IMG/VR virus record: IMGVR_UViG_3300027844_000553
Location: 1 to 20,536 of that record
Reading direction: 5' to 3' (one strand)
DNA length: 20,536 nt
DNA from: a virus
Shown here: positions 3,022 through 13,119 of the stretch, in pieces
Position numbering within the stretch: the stretch's first letter is position 1
Layout: each line of letters opens with the position of its first letter
Notes under the pieces: generated by a model
Told to the model about the DNA's origin: nothing
The model's database searches: none
Seen by the model: the letters and a program-made list of their open reading frames with translations, nothing else
Translations under genes and position numbers: made by a program

Positions 3022-5055
3022 ATGGCAGAACGTATATCTGGCATTGCATTAATGCCTAGACAATCACGTAATGGTGTATATTATGACGTTGAGGAATTAA
3101 AGAAATTTGATGGTAAAACAGTACCACTAAGAGTAGAACATGATAAAGACACCCATATAGGCCAAGTTACATTCTCATTTGATGAAGAGAAGAGTCAAGT
3201 GAAATATGAAGCAACTGTATTTGATTCAGAATGGCAACAGATACTAAGTAATGAACAATATCAAGTATCAATAGGAGCATCAGTATTAGAACAAAGACAT
3301 CTATGTGATGAAATGAAAGTCAAATGTCTTAATGCACCTGTATTAGATGAAATATTAGAATTATCAGTCGTTAGAACACCTGGAATACCAGAATCTACTT
3401 TACACGTTGTAGAGACACATAACGCACAATATATTAAAATTTTAAATGAACAAGAAGTACCTACTTCATTTGGTGGATTCATTGATCCTATCAGATTAAG
3501 ACAGGAAATATCAGATAGTGTTAAAGCAAAGAATCCTGATTTAGAATCAGATGAGATAGATAGAAAGTCAGGAGAATTACTAGGAACATTAGAAGTAGCA
3601 TTTCTTAGACTAATACAACCACCAACACAAGTACAACCTACACCAGAACAGACAGATAATGTTGATAATACTTCCAATAAAGAAACTCCCATCAATCAAA
3701 ACATGACAACCGAAATTTCTGAAAAGAAAGTAGAGGAAAAAGTCAAAGTAACCATTGAAACAGATGGTGAAGTAGAAGTAGGTAAACCAGAAGCAAAAAC
3801 TGAAGTAGTTGACGACAAATGTCCTGATGGAAAGGATTTGGTTGACGGTAAATGCGTTGACAAACCAGCTACAGAAGATGTTTCTGATAAAGTTGCCGAA
3901 AGAATTGAAAAATCCAATTCAGACACACTCAAAGCAGTTATTGAAACTGTTAAAGGGAACTGGAATCCTAAATCAGAAGTTGCAGAATCAACCAACGCAA
4001 GTTATGTTGAAGAAGCATTTACTGACGACCAAGCAACAGCTTTCATGGATAAACTCTTTGAAACTGGCTATAACAAATTGGTCCTTGAAAAAGAAGGATG
4101 GATTGAAACTCATTCATACCAAAAACAAACAGGTAATGGAGAGGTTCAAGAAGCCGTTTCTACATCAGGAACTATTCCAGGTGTAAAACAAGCATCAAAC
4201 ATTTCAATTCAGTTAGGTAGCAAAACTGCAATTCCTATTAGACAGTATGGTCAATTCCAAGCTGTTACAACAGGACAAAATACTGCAAGATTCTACAGAA
4301 TCACAGTACCAGATGCAGGAGCAATTACTGAAAGCCCAACTACTGACATCACAGCAGTTACTCACACCTTAACAGCAATCGACGTAACGTGTAGCATACG
4401 AGGTTGGAGACAAGTAGTAGAAAAAGCAAATCTTGAGGACTATCCTGCAAGTTTCCTTAACGCAATTAGAGAAACTGCAAGACTAGAAGCAATCAGAGAT
4501 GAGCATAAACTAATTCTCCAAGACTTAGGTGCATTAGATCACGACTTTGGTGGTGTATCAACAGCTCCTTACCATATTGGGGGATCTGACGGTGCAGCAA
4601 CTACAACAACCACAGAAGAAGATGCTGATGGGGAATTAGACGAAGATGGTCTAACATTTAGTAAAAGATACCTTGAAGAATTAGGTCAAGATACCAGCCC
4701 TGGTAATTTGGTCGCTTTCATCAGCCCAAGAGCTTTTGAAGCATTAATTTCTTCAACATCTTTATCCGAATATACCCAAATCGGAAATGCAGGTGTTACC
4801 AGACTCGGACAAATGGAGAGACTGTATGGTATTGACATAATCGTCACTAATGAACTTCTTTCAGCCAATAACGCATCAAGAAACCTTGTATGTGTTAAAG
4901 GTAAAGCATGGGGATTAGCCTCACAAAGAAAGATGGAAATTGAGTTCCAAAAGAATGTCGCAGGACAATACTGGGATATTGTATGGACTCATAGAATTGG
5001 TGTAGATATCCTTGATCCAAACACATACGTAATTGTTTCTACTGTAAACGCATAG
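3022..5055 (+). CDS. Prohead protease-major capsid protein fusion
   Basis: This 677-residue ORF holds two normally separate head genes. Residues 1-130 resemble an HK97-type prohead maturation protease: VPLRVEHDKDTHIGQV carries the candidate catalytic His40, QVSIGASV the candidate Ser83, and ILELSVVRTPGIPESTL matches the 'EvS.V..P..P.A' end. Residues about 140-300 are charged, coil-rich and low-complexity, like a scaffold (delta) region, and include a Cys-paired CPDGKDLVDGKC. Residues about 310-677 look like an HK97-fold capsid protein, with GTIPGVKQASNISIQLGSKT, a region around the internal ARLEAIRDEHKLILQDLG helix, and FISPRAFEALI. The capsid part uses more C-ending codons (AAC, GAC, TTC), as in highly expressed genes. 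An internal ATG at 3703 (Met228) has its own promoter-like element 34 nt upstream, so capsid protein may also be made separately. Confidence 0.8.
   Translation: MAERISGIALMPRQSRNGVYYDVEELKKFDGKTVPLRVEHDKDTHIGQVTFSFDEEKSQVKYEATVFDSEWQQILSNEQYQVSIGASVLEQRHLCDEMKVKCLNAPVLDEILELSVVRTPGIPESTLHVVETHNAQYIKILNEQEVPTSFGGFIDPIRLRQEISDSVKAKNPDLESDEIDRKSGELLGTLEVAFLRLIQPPTQVQPTPEQTDNVDNTSNKETPINQNMTTEISEKKVEEKVKVTIETDGEVEVGKPEAKTEVVDDKCPDGKDLVDGKCVDKPATEDVSDKVAERIEKSNSDTLKAVIETVKGNWNPKSEVAESTNASYVEEAFTDDQATAFMDKLFETGYNKLVLEKEGWIETHSYQKQTGNGEVQEAVSTSGTIPGVKQASNISIQLGSKTAIPIRQYGQFQAVTTGQNTARFYRITVPDAGAITESPTTDITAVTHTLTAIDVTCSIRGWRQVVEKANLEDYPASFLNAIRETARLEAIRDEHKLILQDLGALDHDFGGVSTAPYHIGGSDGAATTTTTEEDADGELDEDGLTFSKRYLEELGQDTSPGNLVAFISPRAFEALISSTSLSEYTQIGNAGVTRLGQMERLYGIDIIVTNELLSANNASRNLVCVKGKAWGLASQRKMEIEFQKNVAGQYWDIVWTHRIGVDILDPNTYVIVSTVNA
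3669..3681 (+). promoter_or_regulatory. Candidate internal TACTTC promoter for capsid-only product
   Basis: TACTTCCAATAAA lies inside the fused protease-capsid reading frame and starts exactly 34 nt before the in-frame ATG at 3703 (Met228). This is the spacing of the other seven TACTTC elements. The AATAAA half is a weaker TATA. It would yield a 450-residue scaffold-plus-capsid protein. Spacing and the codon-use change nearby are suggestive; no transcript evidence is available. Confidence 0.45.
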
Positions 5056-5882: not shown

Positions 5883-6689
5883 ATGTTATCAGGTATAATA
5901 ATATCAGTTATACTAATTTTAGTTATATCATCAAGTGTTATTACTGTTAATGCTGATATATTTAATACATTAAAATTGAAACAATCAGATAGGCCATCAG
6001 TATGTATATTTGAACCATCAACAGAGACAACAGATAATTGGGAGTTATTGAAAGTTGCAACATTAATGGGTGTTTACTCATGGGATATTAAACTTAACAA
6101 GGCATATCCAGATGGAGATTGGAATATAAAAATACATGATGTTATACCTTGGGAAGAGCATAAACATAAATTAGCATCAGATTATAAACAATGCAATATA
6201 ATGATTAACTTTGAAAAGACAAATGAGACTGGGAACTCCAAAGCAATAGGAACTACATCAATTAAATTCAATAACTCAAATCATAAATATATGTTCATCA
6301 ATATATACCTGGAACATCAAAGATTATCAAATAATTCAAAGATAATGATTGGAGAAGGTAGTATAGGAAATTTCACAGTACCTCTAAACAAGATAATATT
6401 AACACCTAATTTAGTAAGAAATGTGGTATTACATGAAATGGGGCATACGTTGGGATTAGAGCATTATTCCATTACAACACCATTAAAAATAGGGGAGAAT
6501 GGTATAGATAGATCATCAATGTACCCTTCAATAAATATTAATAATAATGAACAGACGTTAGAAGTAAAACAACCAGAGATATTATTGCTAAAGGAAATAT
6601 ACGGTGAAGACGGATGGTTAGGTAGTTCTCCTATATGGAATATTAGAAATTGTATTGTTATAGATAATGTTCTATATGGATGCGAGTAA
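5883..6689 (+). CDS. Secreted matrixin-like zinc metalloprotease
   Basis: This 268-residue protein begins with a hydrophobic signal sequence or anchor (residues 1-24, ending SVITVNA). It carries the metzincin zinc motif HEMGHTLGLEH (His184, Glu185, His188, His194) followed by a Met-turn SSMYP (Met213), the signature of matrixin (M10-like) proteases. The zinc ligands and catalytic Glu are all present. An N-terminal CIFEP and a C-terminal IYGEDGW match a family I recall as common in thaumarchaeal genomes, so it was probably acquired from a host. It should act outside the membrane. Thaumarchaea have a protein S-layer rather than peptidoglycan, so degrading the S-layer during exit or entry is a reasonable inference. 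Its position next to small membrane proteins supports exit. Conversion to a virion-bound protease is an alternative. Confidence 0.8.
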   Translation: MLSGIIISVILILVISSSVITVNADIFNTLKLKQSDRPSVCIFEPSTETTDNWELLKVATLMGVYSWDIKLNKAYPDGDWNIKIHDVIPWEEHKHKLASDYKQCNIMINFEKTNETGNSKAIGTTSIKFNNSNHKYMFINIYLEHQRLSNNSKIMIGEGSIGNFTVPLNKIILTPNLVRNVVLHEMGHTLGLEHYSITTPLKIGENGIDRSSMYPSININNNEQTLEVKQPEILLLKEIYGEDGWLGSSPIWNIRNCIVIDNVLYGCE

Positions 6690-8537: not shown

Positions 8538-9470
8538 ATGGTAGTTTCAGCACACAATGTTACAACTAAACGAGATATAGTAAAAGAATTACAATTCGTA
8601 ACTGAAGGAAATTCAGTAACTACTCCAGCATTATACGGAGTAACACCAAACTCATCAACCTTTGCTATAGTAGGTAATAATACAGAAATTAACATTCAAC
8701 CAGATGTTCAACATATGGATGTCTCAGTATTAGGATCAGAAGATGTTATTGATGCAGTAAAGACACAATCATTATACGCATTTACACTTAGAAACAATCC
8801 AGTAGATTTAACATTATGGAAATATCTATGGAATAGTTCTGGAACAGGAGCAACATCCCCAGACAGTTCATTATCATTTACATATTCATTTAACTTAAAC
8901 GGTACAGAATATTATCAACATATGAGAGGATGTAGACCAACATCAGGAACTCTATCTGTATCAAGAGGTATGTGGGATCAAAACATGACATTTATCTGTA
9001 AAGATATTACAATACCAACAACATCAACATCAGATCCAGGAACTCCAGTATATCAATCAGCAGAGACTACATCATCTCCAATCGTTCACTCTGATGGTGG
9101 AGGAAGTCCATTCACTTACAACTCTATAGCATACGGAGAGAGATCATTTAGTACAACAATTAATAGAAACATGGCAGTAATGGCAGTTAATGGGGAAACT
9201 GATATCACTTATACTAAAGCAACTGACAGAGCAATCACATTTACAGCAGATGTATTTTCTGGAACTGCTTCAAGTGAAACAGCATTATACACATTATATG
9301 AATCCAAAGATGCAGATGCAGCAAGTTACAAATTCACTTCTGCTGGAACTGTAACATTAACATATGCAAACGCAGTTATCACAGATTACTCATATACTCA
9401 TGCAGCAGGATCAGCAGATGCACTTATTGAATCTATTACTTGTAGAGCAGAATCAGTAACAAACCTATAG
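8538..9470 (+). CDS. Major tail (tube) protein
   Basis: This is a 310-residue beta-rich protein, of a length usual for siphovirus tube proteins carrying an extra Ig-like or tube-decorating part. It has an N-terminal segment ELQFVTEGNSVTTPALYGV, typical of tube proteins ('...yG.....p..f...'). A central region GTEYYQHMRGCRPTSGTLSV corresponds to the strand/turn before the inner tube sheet. The C-terminal half repeats strand-turn patterns (AITFTADVFSGTAS, FTSAGTVTLTYANAVITDYSY). Gene order (terminator, tube, chaperone, tape measure) supports the call. Only one cysteine-poor domain is evident and there is no signal peptide. It should form stacked rings of the tail tube, with the chaperones downstream aiding assembly. 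Confidence 0.7.
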   Translation: MVVSAHNVTTKRDIVKELQFVTEGNSVTTPALYGVTPNSSTFAIVGNNTEINIQPDVQHMDVSVLGSEDVIDAVKTQSLYAFTLRNNPVDLTLWKYLWNSSGTGATSPDSSLSFTYSFNLNGTEYYQHMRGCRPTSGTLSVSRGMWDQNMTFICKDITIPTTSTSDPGTPVYQSAETTSSPIVHSDGGGSPFTYNSIAYGERSFSTTINRNMAVMAVNGETDITYTKATDRAITFTADVFSGTASSETALYTLYESKDADAASYKFTSAGTVTLTYANAVITDYSYTHAAGSADALIESITCRAESVTNL

Positions 9471-9500: not shown

Positions 9501-9899
9501 ATGCCATTCTTAAACATAGATAAAAAGGCTTGGATTATTAAAGATTTAGAGATTCCTGTTATCGAAGAAGTTTCTATGAAGGGTATGAAATGGTTTAGGG
9601 ATAAAGTAAAATGGGCTGCTGAAAGAGAGGAGAAAGGAGATATTACACAGACTCAAGCATTAGCAGCAGATGATGAATGGTGGACTAAAACTTGTGATAT
9701 TGGGTTAGGTAAAAGTATGGATGATATATTAGAATCTGGTGTTACAGAACCAGAGTTTAGAGAATTAATGGCTGAGGTATACAGTTTTTTAGCAATATAT
9801 GGAACGATAGAAAGAGCAAAGCTATCCGCTTTGTACGATCCAGAGATCCTAAAGAGAGAGAACAAGCTTACAGAGACTACCCAGAACTCAGAGAAATAG
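9501..9899 (+). CDS. Tail assembly chaperone, short form (gpG-like)
   Basis: This 132-residue, mainly helical and acidic protein lies between the tail tube and tape measure genes, the position of tail assembly chaperones in siphoviruses (lambda gpG is about 140 residues). Segments such as MKGMKWFRDKVKWAAEREEK and EPEFRELMAEVYSFLAIYG are helical. At residues 95-97 (S-F-L) the codons AGT TTT TTA contain the canonical slippery heptamer T TTT TTA (9785-9791). The -1 frame is open from 9776 to 10051, so ribosomes that slip would make an extended protein. The short form would coat the tape measure protein during tail assembly. The start lies at a plausible TATA distance. Confidence 0.75.
   Translation: MPFLNIDKKAWIIKDLEIPVIEEVSMKGMKWFRDKVKWAAEREEKGDITQTQALAADDEWWTKTCDIGLGKSMDDILESGVTEPEFRELMAEVYSFLAIYGTIERAKLSALYDPEILKRENKLTETTQNSEK
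9785..9791 (+). other. Probable -1 programmed frameshift site (T TTT TTA)
   Basis: In the zero frame the codons are AGT TTT TTA, so positions 9785-9791 read T TTT TTA, a canonical X XXY YYZ slippery heptamer of the kind used by HIV-1. A 6-bp hairpin (9817-9822 with 9828-9833, loop of 5, plus a G-T pair) lies 25 nt downstream. That is farther than the usual 5-9 nt spacer, so its role is doubtful. Confidence 0.65.
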
Positions 9900-10054
9900 T
9901 ACCAATGATATATCTAGTTAGAGGTGGATTTGGATCATGGACAGAAATTTATGATTTAAAAGAGAAACTAGGTATGGATAAATTATTAGAGATACAAAAT
10001 ATACTATCTATATTACAACAAGAAGAAGAATTAGATAATGGCAATAGACATTGA
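9791..10054 (+). CDS. Frameshifted extension of the tail chaperone (gpGT-like T domain)
   Basis: In the -1 frame relative to the chaperone gene, 87 codons follow the slip site and end at TGA 10052-10054. With the first 97 codons from the zero frame this gives a 184-residue fusion. The extension is protein-like, especially EREQAYRDYPELREIVPMIY (from about 9857) and WTEIYDLKEKLGMDKLLEIQ, consistent with a helical T domain that binds tail tube subunits. The only ATG in this frame is at 9905 and would give just 49 residues with no promoter, so independent expression is unlikely. The end overlaps the next gene by 17 nt. I read it as the counterpart of lambda gpGT. The -1 reading is strongly suggested but untested. 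Confidence 0.65.
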   Translation, partial: SNIWNDRKSKAIRFVRSRDPKEREQAYRDYPELREIVPMIYLVRGGFGSWTEIYDLKEKLGMDKLLEIQNILSILQQEEELDNGNRH

Positions 10055-10592
10055 AGGATTAAAAGAAATACAAAGTAAATTTAATAAATTTAAATTTAGA
10101 GGTAAGAATATAAAATATAAATTCTTAACTATGGTAGGTGTAGAGGCATTAGAGTTACTTAAAATGAATACTCCAGTTGATACAGGAACATTACGAGAAG
10201 GATGGATATTACAACAAAGTGAGAATGAAGTAACCATTATGAACGATCAACAGGACCTTATATCATTTCTTTCAATGGGTACTATACGTCACATTGCAAA
10301 CCCATTCATTATGAGGATTAACAGTCAAGTAGATAATATGGTTATGGCCAGATTAGAATTAGCATTAGCAGAATCACATGAGTTCTTTAGGAAACTTCCT
10401 GGAGGAAAGAATAGAAAGATGCAACAAGTAGGAAGAACCTCAGCAGGATTCAAAGGTGGTATATCATTTGCAGGTAGATCCACATTAGTTAGAGCAGGAA
10501 CAGGAAGAAGACAATTAAAGCGTAGATTATCTCTCAGACGTAGAAGAGGTAAATCAATTAATCCAGCAAGAAAAGATGCTAAAGTAGGGTAA
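10038..10592 (+). CDS. HK97 gp10-like tail completion protein
   Basis: This 184-residue protein contains the family hallmark NTPVDTGTLREGW (residues about 43-55). The motif 'tPvdTG.Lr.s.' is seen in HK97 gp10-like and related neck/tail completion proteins. An N-terminal helix (IEGLKEIQSKFNKFKF) precedes it and HIANPFIMRI follows. The C-terminus, from about residue 130, is strikingly basic (RRQLKRRLSLRRRRGKS). That suggests contact with DNA or an acidic tail component, and it is longer than the usual family end. Its position after the chaperones, rather than before the tail tube gene, differs from the classic order. The start overlaps the frameshift extension by 17 nt. Confidence 0.65.
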   Translation: MAIDIEGLKEIQSKFNKFKFRGKNIKYKFLTMVGVEALELLKMNTPVDTGTLREGWILQQSENEVTIMNDQQDLISFLSMGTIRHIANPFIMRINSQVDNMVMARLELALAESHEFFRKLPGGKNRKMQQVGRTSAGFKGGISFAGRSTLVRAGTGRRQLKRRLSLRRRRGKSINPARKDAKVG

Positions 10593-10626: not shown

Positions 10627-13119
10627 ATGGCTAGGGATAATGTAACATTTAAGTTTAGAATAGACTTAACCCAAATGACTATAAAAGGTCGACAAGCTGT
10701 AAAGATTTTAGAAGATATACAGAGAAAATCAGGTCAAGCAGCAGCAGGTATGAGTAGAATGGGAACAGCAGCAACTAAGACAGGACAACAAACAGCAGCA
10801 GCAGCCATTAACTTTCAAACAGCTACTCAAGGTATGCTCAACTTATCAACAGCAGCAGTACAAACTTTCACTTCCATATCTAACTTAGACAGAGCTAACA
10901 ATAGAGCAAAGATGTCTGTAATTGCAGTAGCAAGAGCAGAGGATTTATTAGCAAACAAATTAGAAAGACAAAACACATTAAGAGCAGCAGGAGCAACAGG
11001 TTCACAAAAGGATATTAATATCACTAAAGAAATAGCAACTGCAAAAGCAGACCTTACAGTAAAGACAGAGAAGATGGGAATTGAACAAGCAGCAGTTAAT
11101 GATATTTATATGTTGTTCGCTACAAACATAGCAAACGTCACAATATCATCTATACAGACTATAGCAATTTTAGATAAAAATCAAATAATACTTAACACAG
11201 CAAAAGCAGTAGGAATGAAACTAAATAATTTCCTATCTATCAATGCAGCACGAGCAGCATATAGTGAGGCAGCAGCATCAGCAGTTAACTCTACAGCAAA
11301 GGGAGTAGCAATAGGAGTAACAGCTAAATTAACAGTAGCAATGTATGGATTAGCAGCAGCAACTAGAGCAGTAGTATCAGCAAACCCTTTATTAATGGTT
11401 GCTATGGTAGGACTTACAGCAGCATGGGCTGTACACGAAACAGATATACTTGGAACTAAAACAGCATTAGATGGATATATCGGTGTAGAGAAAGATCATC
11501 TTGAGTTAATGGAAGCGGAAAGGATGGCAGCCAATGGATTAACACAAGCTAACGGAGATTTAACACAATCTTATAAGAAACTATCCCCTGTAGCAGAAGC
11601 ACATTATAAAATGTTACGAGACTTTATGGTTAATACAGGTAATGCTAGATTAGCAGCACAATATGAAGCTAAACTATTAGGAGCGAAGCCTCAGGGTTTT
11701 AGTCAGCCCTCTGAAACAGGAGGGCAAATTGGAACTTCTGGAGGAGGGATATCTGAAACAGGGATATCTGAAACAGGTACAGCATCATCAGTAGCAACCA
11801 CACCAACACAAGTATCTTCAGGAGGTTTCTTACCTATGTCATTTGGAGATACTGGATCAAGTGGTACAGAATCAAGTGTAGTAACACCTGCATCTATAAC
11901 ATCAGATAAAACTAAAGCAGATCCTTTTGGATCAGTATTACAAAAAGAGTTATATAAAGGATTAAATCCAATACAGAAACGAACCACTAATATTATATTA
12001 GCAGCAGAATCAGCAGCAGTAGGTAGACCTGGAGCAGCAGCAGCATACTTACGTAAAGCAGATCAAATAACAGCAGCAGCTAACAGTTATGTAGAACCAA
12101 AACATTTCACATTTGCAGACATCTTAAAAGATCCTAGTATGACATCAGATAATTTCTTTGGAGTAAACATGTCTAAATCAAGACCAGGATCTAGATCTGA
12201 ATTTAAATATGGTATTGATATTGCACAAGCCCATCATGGTCCAAATAGTGCAGATCCGTGGGATCCTAAGTCTACAAGAGCAAAAGTATATAATAAAACA
12301 GGTAGAGATATAGGATCAATAGCAGATCATATAGATGTAAATGAAGGTATAAGATTAGCAAACTTGGAAACAAGTATGTCACAATTTAGAAATACCACAG
12401 GAGGTAGAGCAGCATTAGCAATAGCAGCAGTAGGAGGTAACGCTACTCAAGCATGGCAGGTACCTAAAGGATCTATAAGAGCAAGTGCTGGGTTCTATCA
12501 AACAATAGCAATACAAGATGCTAACTATAACAGATTGGCATGGGGAGGAACTAGAGTAGAGGAAATACCTATGGATAAAGAGGGAGCAGTAGTAGGTGGA
12601 TTTGGATCATTAAGTGCATTTAAGAGTAATTCAAAACAATTAGCAAATCAAAACCTACAAGAGTCAAAAGAATTTCTAGCAGCATTTGGTGTTAAAGTTA
12701 TTAAAACTTCATATCCAAAATCAGACTACAGAAGGGCATTAATTCGTATGCCTAGAATAGCATCAGAATATAGGTCTATATTGTCATTAGCAGGATTGAG
12801 TTATGAATCTTTAAATCGATCACAAAGTAATTATTATTCTGCAATGAGCTTTAATAACAATCAATTAGCCAAAGCAGAACAAATAAACATATTGAGTGGA
12901 GGATATGACTTGGGAGAATTTAGAGGATCATCTTTATCAGTACCATCATTATCAGATAAAGTATTAGAACAAGACATGTTAATGAAATCAATAGGTTTAG
13001 ACAGAACAGAATCATTTCAAATCATTGATACATTTGGTAGAGGTAGAGAAGAGATTGATGATAGAATATTATGGAAAGATAGACTAAACAATATATCAAC
13101 AGGAACTGCTGTACTATGA
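10627..13119 (+). CDS. Tail tape measure protein
   Basis: This 830-residue protein is the longest in the window and follows the tail chaperones, as tape measure proteins do. The N-terminal about 220 residues are Ala/Gln/Thr-rich and helical (IQRKSGQAAAGMSRMGTAAT). Hydrophobic segments follow at about residues 225-268 (e.g. NPLLMVAMVGLTAAWAV), the usual membrane-spanning part of tape measures. A Gly/Ser/Thr-rich linker lies at about 355-440, containing GISETGISETG. The rest is a globular or helical C-terminal half that I cannot assign. At the family's roughly 1.5 angstrom per residue, tail length would be of the order of 120 nm. No lytic peptidase motif is visible. A 19-nt stretch coding LAWGGT (12535-12553) is identical to one in the 7658 gene. 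It overlaps the next gene by 4 nt (ATGA). Confidence 0.8.
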   Translation: MARDNVTFKFRIDLTQMTIKGRQAVKILEDIQRKSGQAAAGMSRMGTAATKTGQQTAAAAINFQTATQGMLNLSTAAVQTFTSISNLDRANNRAKMSVIAVARAEDLLANKLERQNTLRAAGATGSQKDINITKEIATAKADLTVKTEKMGIEQAAVNDIYMLFATNIANVTISSIQTIAILDKNQIILNTAKAVGMKLNNFLSINAARAAYSEAAASAVNSTAKGVAIGVTAKLTVAMYGLAAATRAVVSANPLLMVAMVGLTAAWAVHETDILGTKTALDGYIGVEKDHLELMEAERMAANGLTQANGDLTQSYKKLSPVAEAHYKMLRDFMVNTGNARLAAQYEAKLLGAKPQGFSQPSETGGQIGTSGGGISETGISETGTASSVATTPTQVSSGGFLPMSFGDTGSSGTESSVVTPASITSDKTKADPFGSVLQKELYKGLNPIQKRTTNIILAAESAAVGRPGAAAAYLRKADQITAAANSYVEPKHFTFADILKDPSMTSDNFFGVNMSKSRPGSRSEFKYGIDIAQAHHGPNSADPWDPKSTRAKVYNKTGRDIGSIADHIDVNEGIRLANLETSMSQFRNTTGGRAALAIAAVGGNATQAWQVPKGSIRASAGFYQTIAIQDANYNRLAWGGTRVEEIPMDKEGAVVGGFGSLSAFKSNSKQLANQNLQESKEFLAAFGVKVIKTSYPKSDYRRALIRMPRIASEYRSILSLAGLSYESLNRSQSNYYSAMSFNNNQLAKAEQINILSGGYDLGEFRGSSLSVPSLSDKVLEQDMLMKSIGLDRTESFQIIDTFGRGREEIDDRILWKDRLNNISTGTAVL

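Follow-up and report, generated by a model that had tools for sequence, protein, structure and literature searches.

According to Xu, Hendrix and Duda (2004), as that work is cited elsewhere (PMC5009743, PMC7911831), a tail-gene frameshift is conserved among tailed phages. In the gpG/gpGT pair of lambda, a −1 heptamer is placed towards the end of a short gene located between those for the tail tube and the tape measure protein. Among archaeal viruses, a −1 frameshift has been proposed in the tail chaperone genes of the haloarchaeal viruses HVTV-1 and HCTV-1, -2 and -5 (PMC5009743, PMC8211752), and a −1 frameshift of the same gene has been proposed for Hardycor1 (PMC7911831). A review of 2021 counts one reported −1 case in archaeal cells, fucA1 of Saccharolobus, the viral cases being the haloarchaeal predictions (PMC8211752). 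Here we analyse a stretch of viral DNA of 20,536 nucleotides (IMG/VR record IMGVR_UViG_3300027844_000553, positions 1 to 20,536; hereafter the window), in which a slippery heptamer, T TTT TTA, lies within a short gene that we call G. Very probably, programmed −1 ribosomal frameshifting at this heptamer makes two proteins, G (132 amino acids) and GT (184 amino acids), which constitute a tail assembly chaperone pair of the lambda type. This would be a known kind of frameshift pair, now in viruses apparently of another archaeal phylum, with an upstream sequence element as its novel part. The initial annotation of the window had called −1 frameshifting rarely documented in archaea; the very same gene had already been proposed to shift in haloarchaeal viruses. 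For viruses of Thaumarchaeota, we found no report of −1 frameshifting in the open-access literature.

The G/GT pair, its candidate signals and the neighbouring tail genes lie on the plus strand. The open reading frame (ORF) of G, which belongs to a conserved family, spans 9501–9899, and TTTTTTA occupies 9785–9791 within it. The phase is T TTT TTA: counted from the G start at 9501, TTT (9786–9788) and TTA (9789–9791) are both zero-frame codons. From 9791 onwards the −1 frame is open for 87 codons until a TGA at 10052–10054. This extension, T (9791–10054, stop included), together with the 97 residues of G up to TTA (9501–9791) gives a GT of 184 amino acids, and the phase, open frame and product length claimed by the initial annotation are thereby confirmed. 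Upstream, the −1 frame of the window is shut by a TGA at 9773–9775, 5 codons before the junction, and no start codon lies in between. How exceptional is such an arrangement? The genes of the window contain 11 in-phase heptamers of the type X XXY YYZ (with Y being A or T, and Z not G). The site at 9785 is the only one that enters a long −1 frame (87 codons, with 22 for the next best) and the only one that leads beyond the end of its own gene. Ordinary ORF calling misses T in these viruses, and the gene models are corrected here.

The initial annotation had suggested looking for conservation of heptamer and frame in related viruses, and both are conserved. Searches of IMG/VR based on T returned 15, 19 and 29 loci, which partly overlap. 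In all 20 sequences examined in detail from the first searches, the heptamer is identical and positioned at the same codon, with the T frame being shut 5–26 codons upstream of the junction. Overall, 29 distinct G/GT sequences were gathered, each of them with the heptamer and with the −1 frame shut 2–26 codons upstream, yet this set was located via TTTTTTA and is hence unable to reveal a relative without it. The statement that no relative lacks the site therefore rests on a less biased search, which took the tail tube gene as its entry point (37 loci) and accepted any X XXY YYZ heptamer. Here, T TTT TTA was present in 29 of the 29 loci on contigs long enough to cover both the site and the T frame, 3 contigs being too short for this, and it is kept even in a lineage whose tail tube protein is only 48% identical. 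Relatives that lack a slip site and provide T with its own start, sought as the case that would speak against frameshifting, numbered 0 among these 29 loci. T had no match in a collection holding one genome per species, and a tblastn search with the window GT gave no match in 50,697 phage records.

The T frame is under purifying selection. Beyond the G stop codon, its median ratio of nonsynonymous to synonymous substitution rates (dN/dS) is about 0.11, whereas reading this DNA in either of the remaining frames gives 1.4 and 3.1. In the region of overlap, the T frame retains constraint (0.29), whereas the G frame is nearly neutral (0.96), and the last 35 residues of G are thus probably of little importance. 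Selection can also be traced at a single base of the heptamer. The codon preceding TTT specifies Thr, Asn, Ser, Ala or His depending on the relative, and its third base, which is the first base of the heptamer, is always T. There are 51 columns of G with at least three different amino acids, and in a count that ignores common descent, only 4 of these have a third base that is at least 95% the same; among those four, the codon before TTT is the most variable, with five different amino acids. The locus adds a deeply conserved case from viruses apparently of another archaeal phylum, one that is backed by evolution at the level of single bases.

What might stimulate the slip? The initial annotation had pointed to a downstream hairpin. 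A hairpin is indeed present (9816–9834, 24 nt past the heptamer), but it does not qualify as a conserved stimulator: with z at −1.3 the stretch shows no exceptional folding, 18 of 19 sequences disrupt one and the same A-U pair, and compensatory changes occur at none of its pairs. The consensus fold downstream of the heptamer is no better than that of column-shuffled alignments, and the alignment of relatives contains no conserved simple hairpin in this region, as judged by a search for simple folds rather than pseudoknots. We therefore rejected the hairpin as the stimulator; it is specific to the window and probably lies outside the signal.

A better candidate is located upstream. A Shine-Dalgarno-like GAGGT (9774–9778), the GAGG core of which (9774–9777) ends 7 nt before the heptamer, may pair with the anti-Shine-Dalgarno sequence of the ribosome. 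Pairing was scored against AUCACCUCC, a general anti-Shine-Dalgarno sequence that is assumed to apply to the 16S rRNA of the host. Across the family, the pairing energy just before the slip site is −7.2 kcal/mol, whereas −3.2 kcal/mol is expected from resampling of synonymous codons (z −9.9), a procedure that uses the family's own codon usage and ignores common descent. By comparison, 47 other windows along G and T, which share the ancestry of the slip-site window, have z values of only −2.2 to +4.2. The effect persists when the set is reduced to 19 representatives below 85% identity or to 11 below 75%, with none of 5000 resamplings reaching the observed value. Of the 29 sequences, 25 have GAGG or GGAG within 24 nt upstream of the heptamer, where 6 would be expected, and in 22 of the 29 it is found at a distance of 7–10 nt (7 nt in 19 sequences, 8 nt in two and 10 nt in one). 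In the window itself, the element scores −7.0 kcal/mol, compared with a mean of −1.0 and a best value of −6.1 kcal/mol for the regions upstream of 21 start codons. As an observation in its own right, most of the 21 window genes lack a Shine-Dalgarno sequence before their start codon. A comparable layout is known from dnaX of E. coli, in which a −1 heptamer is likewise closely preceded by a Shine-Dalgarno-like element inside the gene (PMC5009743, PMC5600365). The family of the window differs from dnaX in its spacing, which is mostly 7 nt rather than 9–14 nt, in having no conserved downstream stem-loop, and in relying on an archaeal ribosome. We tentatively propose, as an idea with somewhat less than an even chance of being right, that ribosomes of marine ammonia-oxidizing archaea use Shine-Dalgarno pairing between mRNA and 16S rRNA as the main stimulator of −1 frameshifting, in a virus whose starts mostly do without it, such that the pairing would have been kept for the control of elongation.

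We envision a scenario whereby the majority of ribosomes would translate 9501–9899 to give G, while a smaller share would slip back by one base when the P site holds TTT and the A site TTA. Both tRNAs would then re-pair with TTT TTT, and the −1 frame would be read to 10054 to yield GT, which carries the 87-residue helical T domain in place of the final 35 residues of G. The slip would probably be promoted by base-pairing between the upstream GAGG and the anti-Shine-Dalgarno end of the 16S rRNA in the elongating ribosome, rather than by RNA structure downstream. A junction peptide such as ...VYSFLSNIWNDR is expected from GT. By analogy with lambda, G might coat the tape measure protein and T might recruit the tail tube protein, with the ratio of G to GT, as set by the slip, governing tail assembly. 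That the slip occurs, how efficient it is, what the GAGG does and that the pair acts as a chaperone are here inferred from sequence rather than shown.

The assignment as tail assembly chaperones is based on gene order and on the anatomy of the frameshift, since neither family nor fold searches identify G or T by similarity. The G/GT pair stands between the tail tube and the tape measure genes, as do the lambda genes. The tail tube gene (8538–9470; PF18906, E 3e-6, with a match to the major tail protein of Pro-Nvie1, a provirus of Nitrososphaera viennensis) is directly upstream of G, and the probable tape measure gene (10627–13119, 830 amino acids) is recognized by its length, its position and a gene order shared with gene 21 of Pro-Nvie1, without a family match. 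The predicted structure of G consists of a β-hairpin followed by helices, with a predicted local distance difference test score (pLDDT) of 85, and that of T consists of five helices (pLDDT 86); the slip position falls in a long predicted helix of G (residues 83–100). In comparison to lambda, no similarity of sequence or fold can be detected, and the pair of the window uses U UUU UUA as its heptamer, is followed by an intervening HK97 gp10-like gene and would function in an archaeal host. The haloarchaeal viruses share with it a predicted frameshift in the tail chaperone gene, but they differ in their heptamers and belong to another archaeal phylum.

Several observations weigh against a lambda-type pair with an upstream stimulator, and they should be set out together. 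Neither G nor T has a significant sequence or fold match to known tail chaperones in the family and fold searches. One gene, the gp10-like gene, separates the G/GT pair from the tape measure gene. In 7 of the 29 sequences, GAGG or GGAG is not found at 7–10 nt from the heptamer, and the usual spacing of 7 nt is below the 9–14 nt between Shine-Dalgarno-like element and shift site in bacterial −1 shifts (PMC5009743). The first of these points is also what favours a pair that undergoes a true −1 frameshift and yet is not a tail assembly chaperone. We regard this as unlikely, given that the pair directly follows the tail tube gene and has the tape measure gene close by, in the same order as in Pro-Nvie1, and given that a short G with a long T extension is the lambda pattern. 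Tail assembly chaperones also recur among the weak fold matches in BFVD, none of which is significant. In the searches against known tail chaperone families, a single member weakly matched Phage_TAC_19 (PF23857) at E 0.024, and PHROGs gave no such match.

Could the two frames be joined by another route? Conceivably, RNA polymerase might add a U, or skip two, on the six-T run, so that part of the mRNA is edited and encodes GT. The run is present in all sequences, and the same fusion frame would result from the edited mRNA. Six T are, however, a short run for polymerase slippage, and here they are embedded in an exact X XXY YYZ motif with the correct codon phase, downstream of an over-conserved, ribosome-directed GAGG that polymerase slippage would not need. 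We thus consider transcriptional slippage very unlikely, and ribosomal frameshifting the preferred explanation. Still less credible is a T protein that is made separately from its own internal start, with its overlap with G being incidental and the GAGG serving as its ribosome-binding site. A Shine-Dalgarno-like element is indeed located just upstream, and the Pro-Nvie1 annotation gives the second ORF as a gene of its own that begins with GTG. In the 20 sequences examined, however, the open T frame contains no ATG, GTG or TTG up to and including the junction, methionines farther into T are not conserved across relatives, and independent initiation leaves the fixed TTTTTTA and the wobble T unexplained. 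Finally, the idea that the T homopolymer was misread or misassembled, with a single ORF as the true gene, has next to no chance of being correct: such runs are typically prone to error and the window is a contig from a metagenome, but this idea is already contradicted by 29 distinct sequences, spread over many separate contigs, that show the identical run of six T. In these, a stop codon ends the G frame and the T frame is shut upstream.

A similar arrangement can be seen in Pro-Nvie1 (FR725450). Its genes follow the order of the window, with the tail tube (17) preceding ORFs 18 and 19, the gp10-like gene (20) and the tape measure gene (21). ORF 19 lies in the −1 frame of ORF 18, and a C CCT TTG heptamer is present in phase directly before the ORF 18 stop. 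Within ORF 18, the sequence that best matches the anti-Shine-Dalgarno is an AGGAGG ending 14 nt before that heptamer. Pro-Nvie1 differs from the window in its C CCT TTG, and ORF 19 is not recognizably related to T; the similarity of ORF 18 to G and of ORF 19 to T is at noise level. This single sequence suggests the same logic with another slip site. A search for relatives of the Pro-Nvie1 tail tube among viral contigs, made to check the conservation of C CCT TTG, found none. As a separate observation on the record itself, ORFs 18 and 19 (FR725450.1, 12545–12620) are annotated as separate genes and resemble a −1 frameshift pair.

Which host does the virus infect? The initial annotation had taken it for an archaeal virus, a view that the present comparisons sustain. 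Among the 50,697 phage records, the TerL of a related contig and the window tail tube match Pro-Nvie1 only (32–33% identity), and Pro-Nvie1 is also the best match there for the fused protease-capsid protein. Related contigs, 30–38 kb long, encode an MCM helicase together with an archaeal Hjc resolvase. An archaeal host is hence well supported, if indirectly, and the window most likely represents a virus of marine ammonia-oxidizing archaea. Pro-Nvie1 matches of the same kind led to the description of the Saanich Inlet fosmid Oxic1_7 as a putative virus of marine Thaumarchaeota (PMC4392320), and judged by this description, the fosmid may belong to the same group. When the one-genome-per-species collection was searched with TerL, it yielded one 9-kb contig binned as Neomarinimicrobiota, which does not contain the G/T site. 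This contig (JAERTG010000021.1, in a Candidatus Neomarinimicrobiota genome) encodes at 394–1740 a TerL that is 83% identical to those of these archaeal-type viruses, and is probably a mis-binned viral contig.

A few features of the surrounding structural genes may be added. The HK97 gp10-like tail completion or neck gene (10038–10592; PF04883, phrog_5) separates the chaperone pair from the tape measure gene, an unusual place that is common to the window and Pro-Nvie1. The prohead protease and the major capsid protein are fused in a 677-amino-acid ORF (3022–5055), again as in Pro-Nvie1. Within the same structural region, a 268-amino-acid protein (5883–6689) contains the zinc metalloprotease motif HEMGHTLGLEH.
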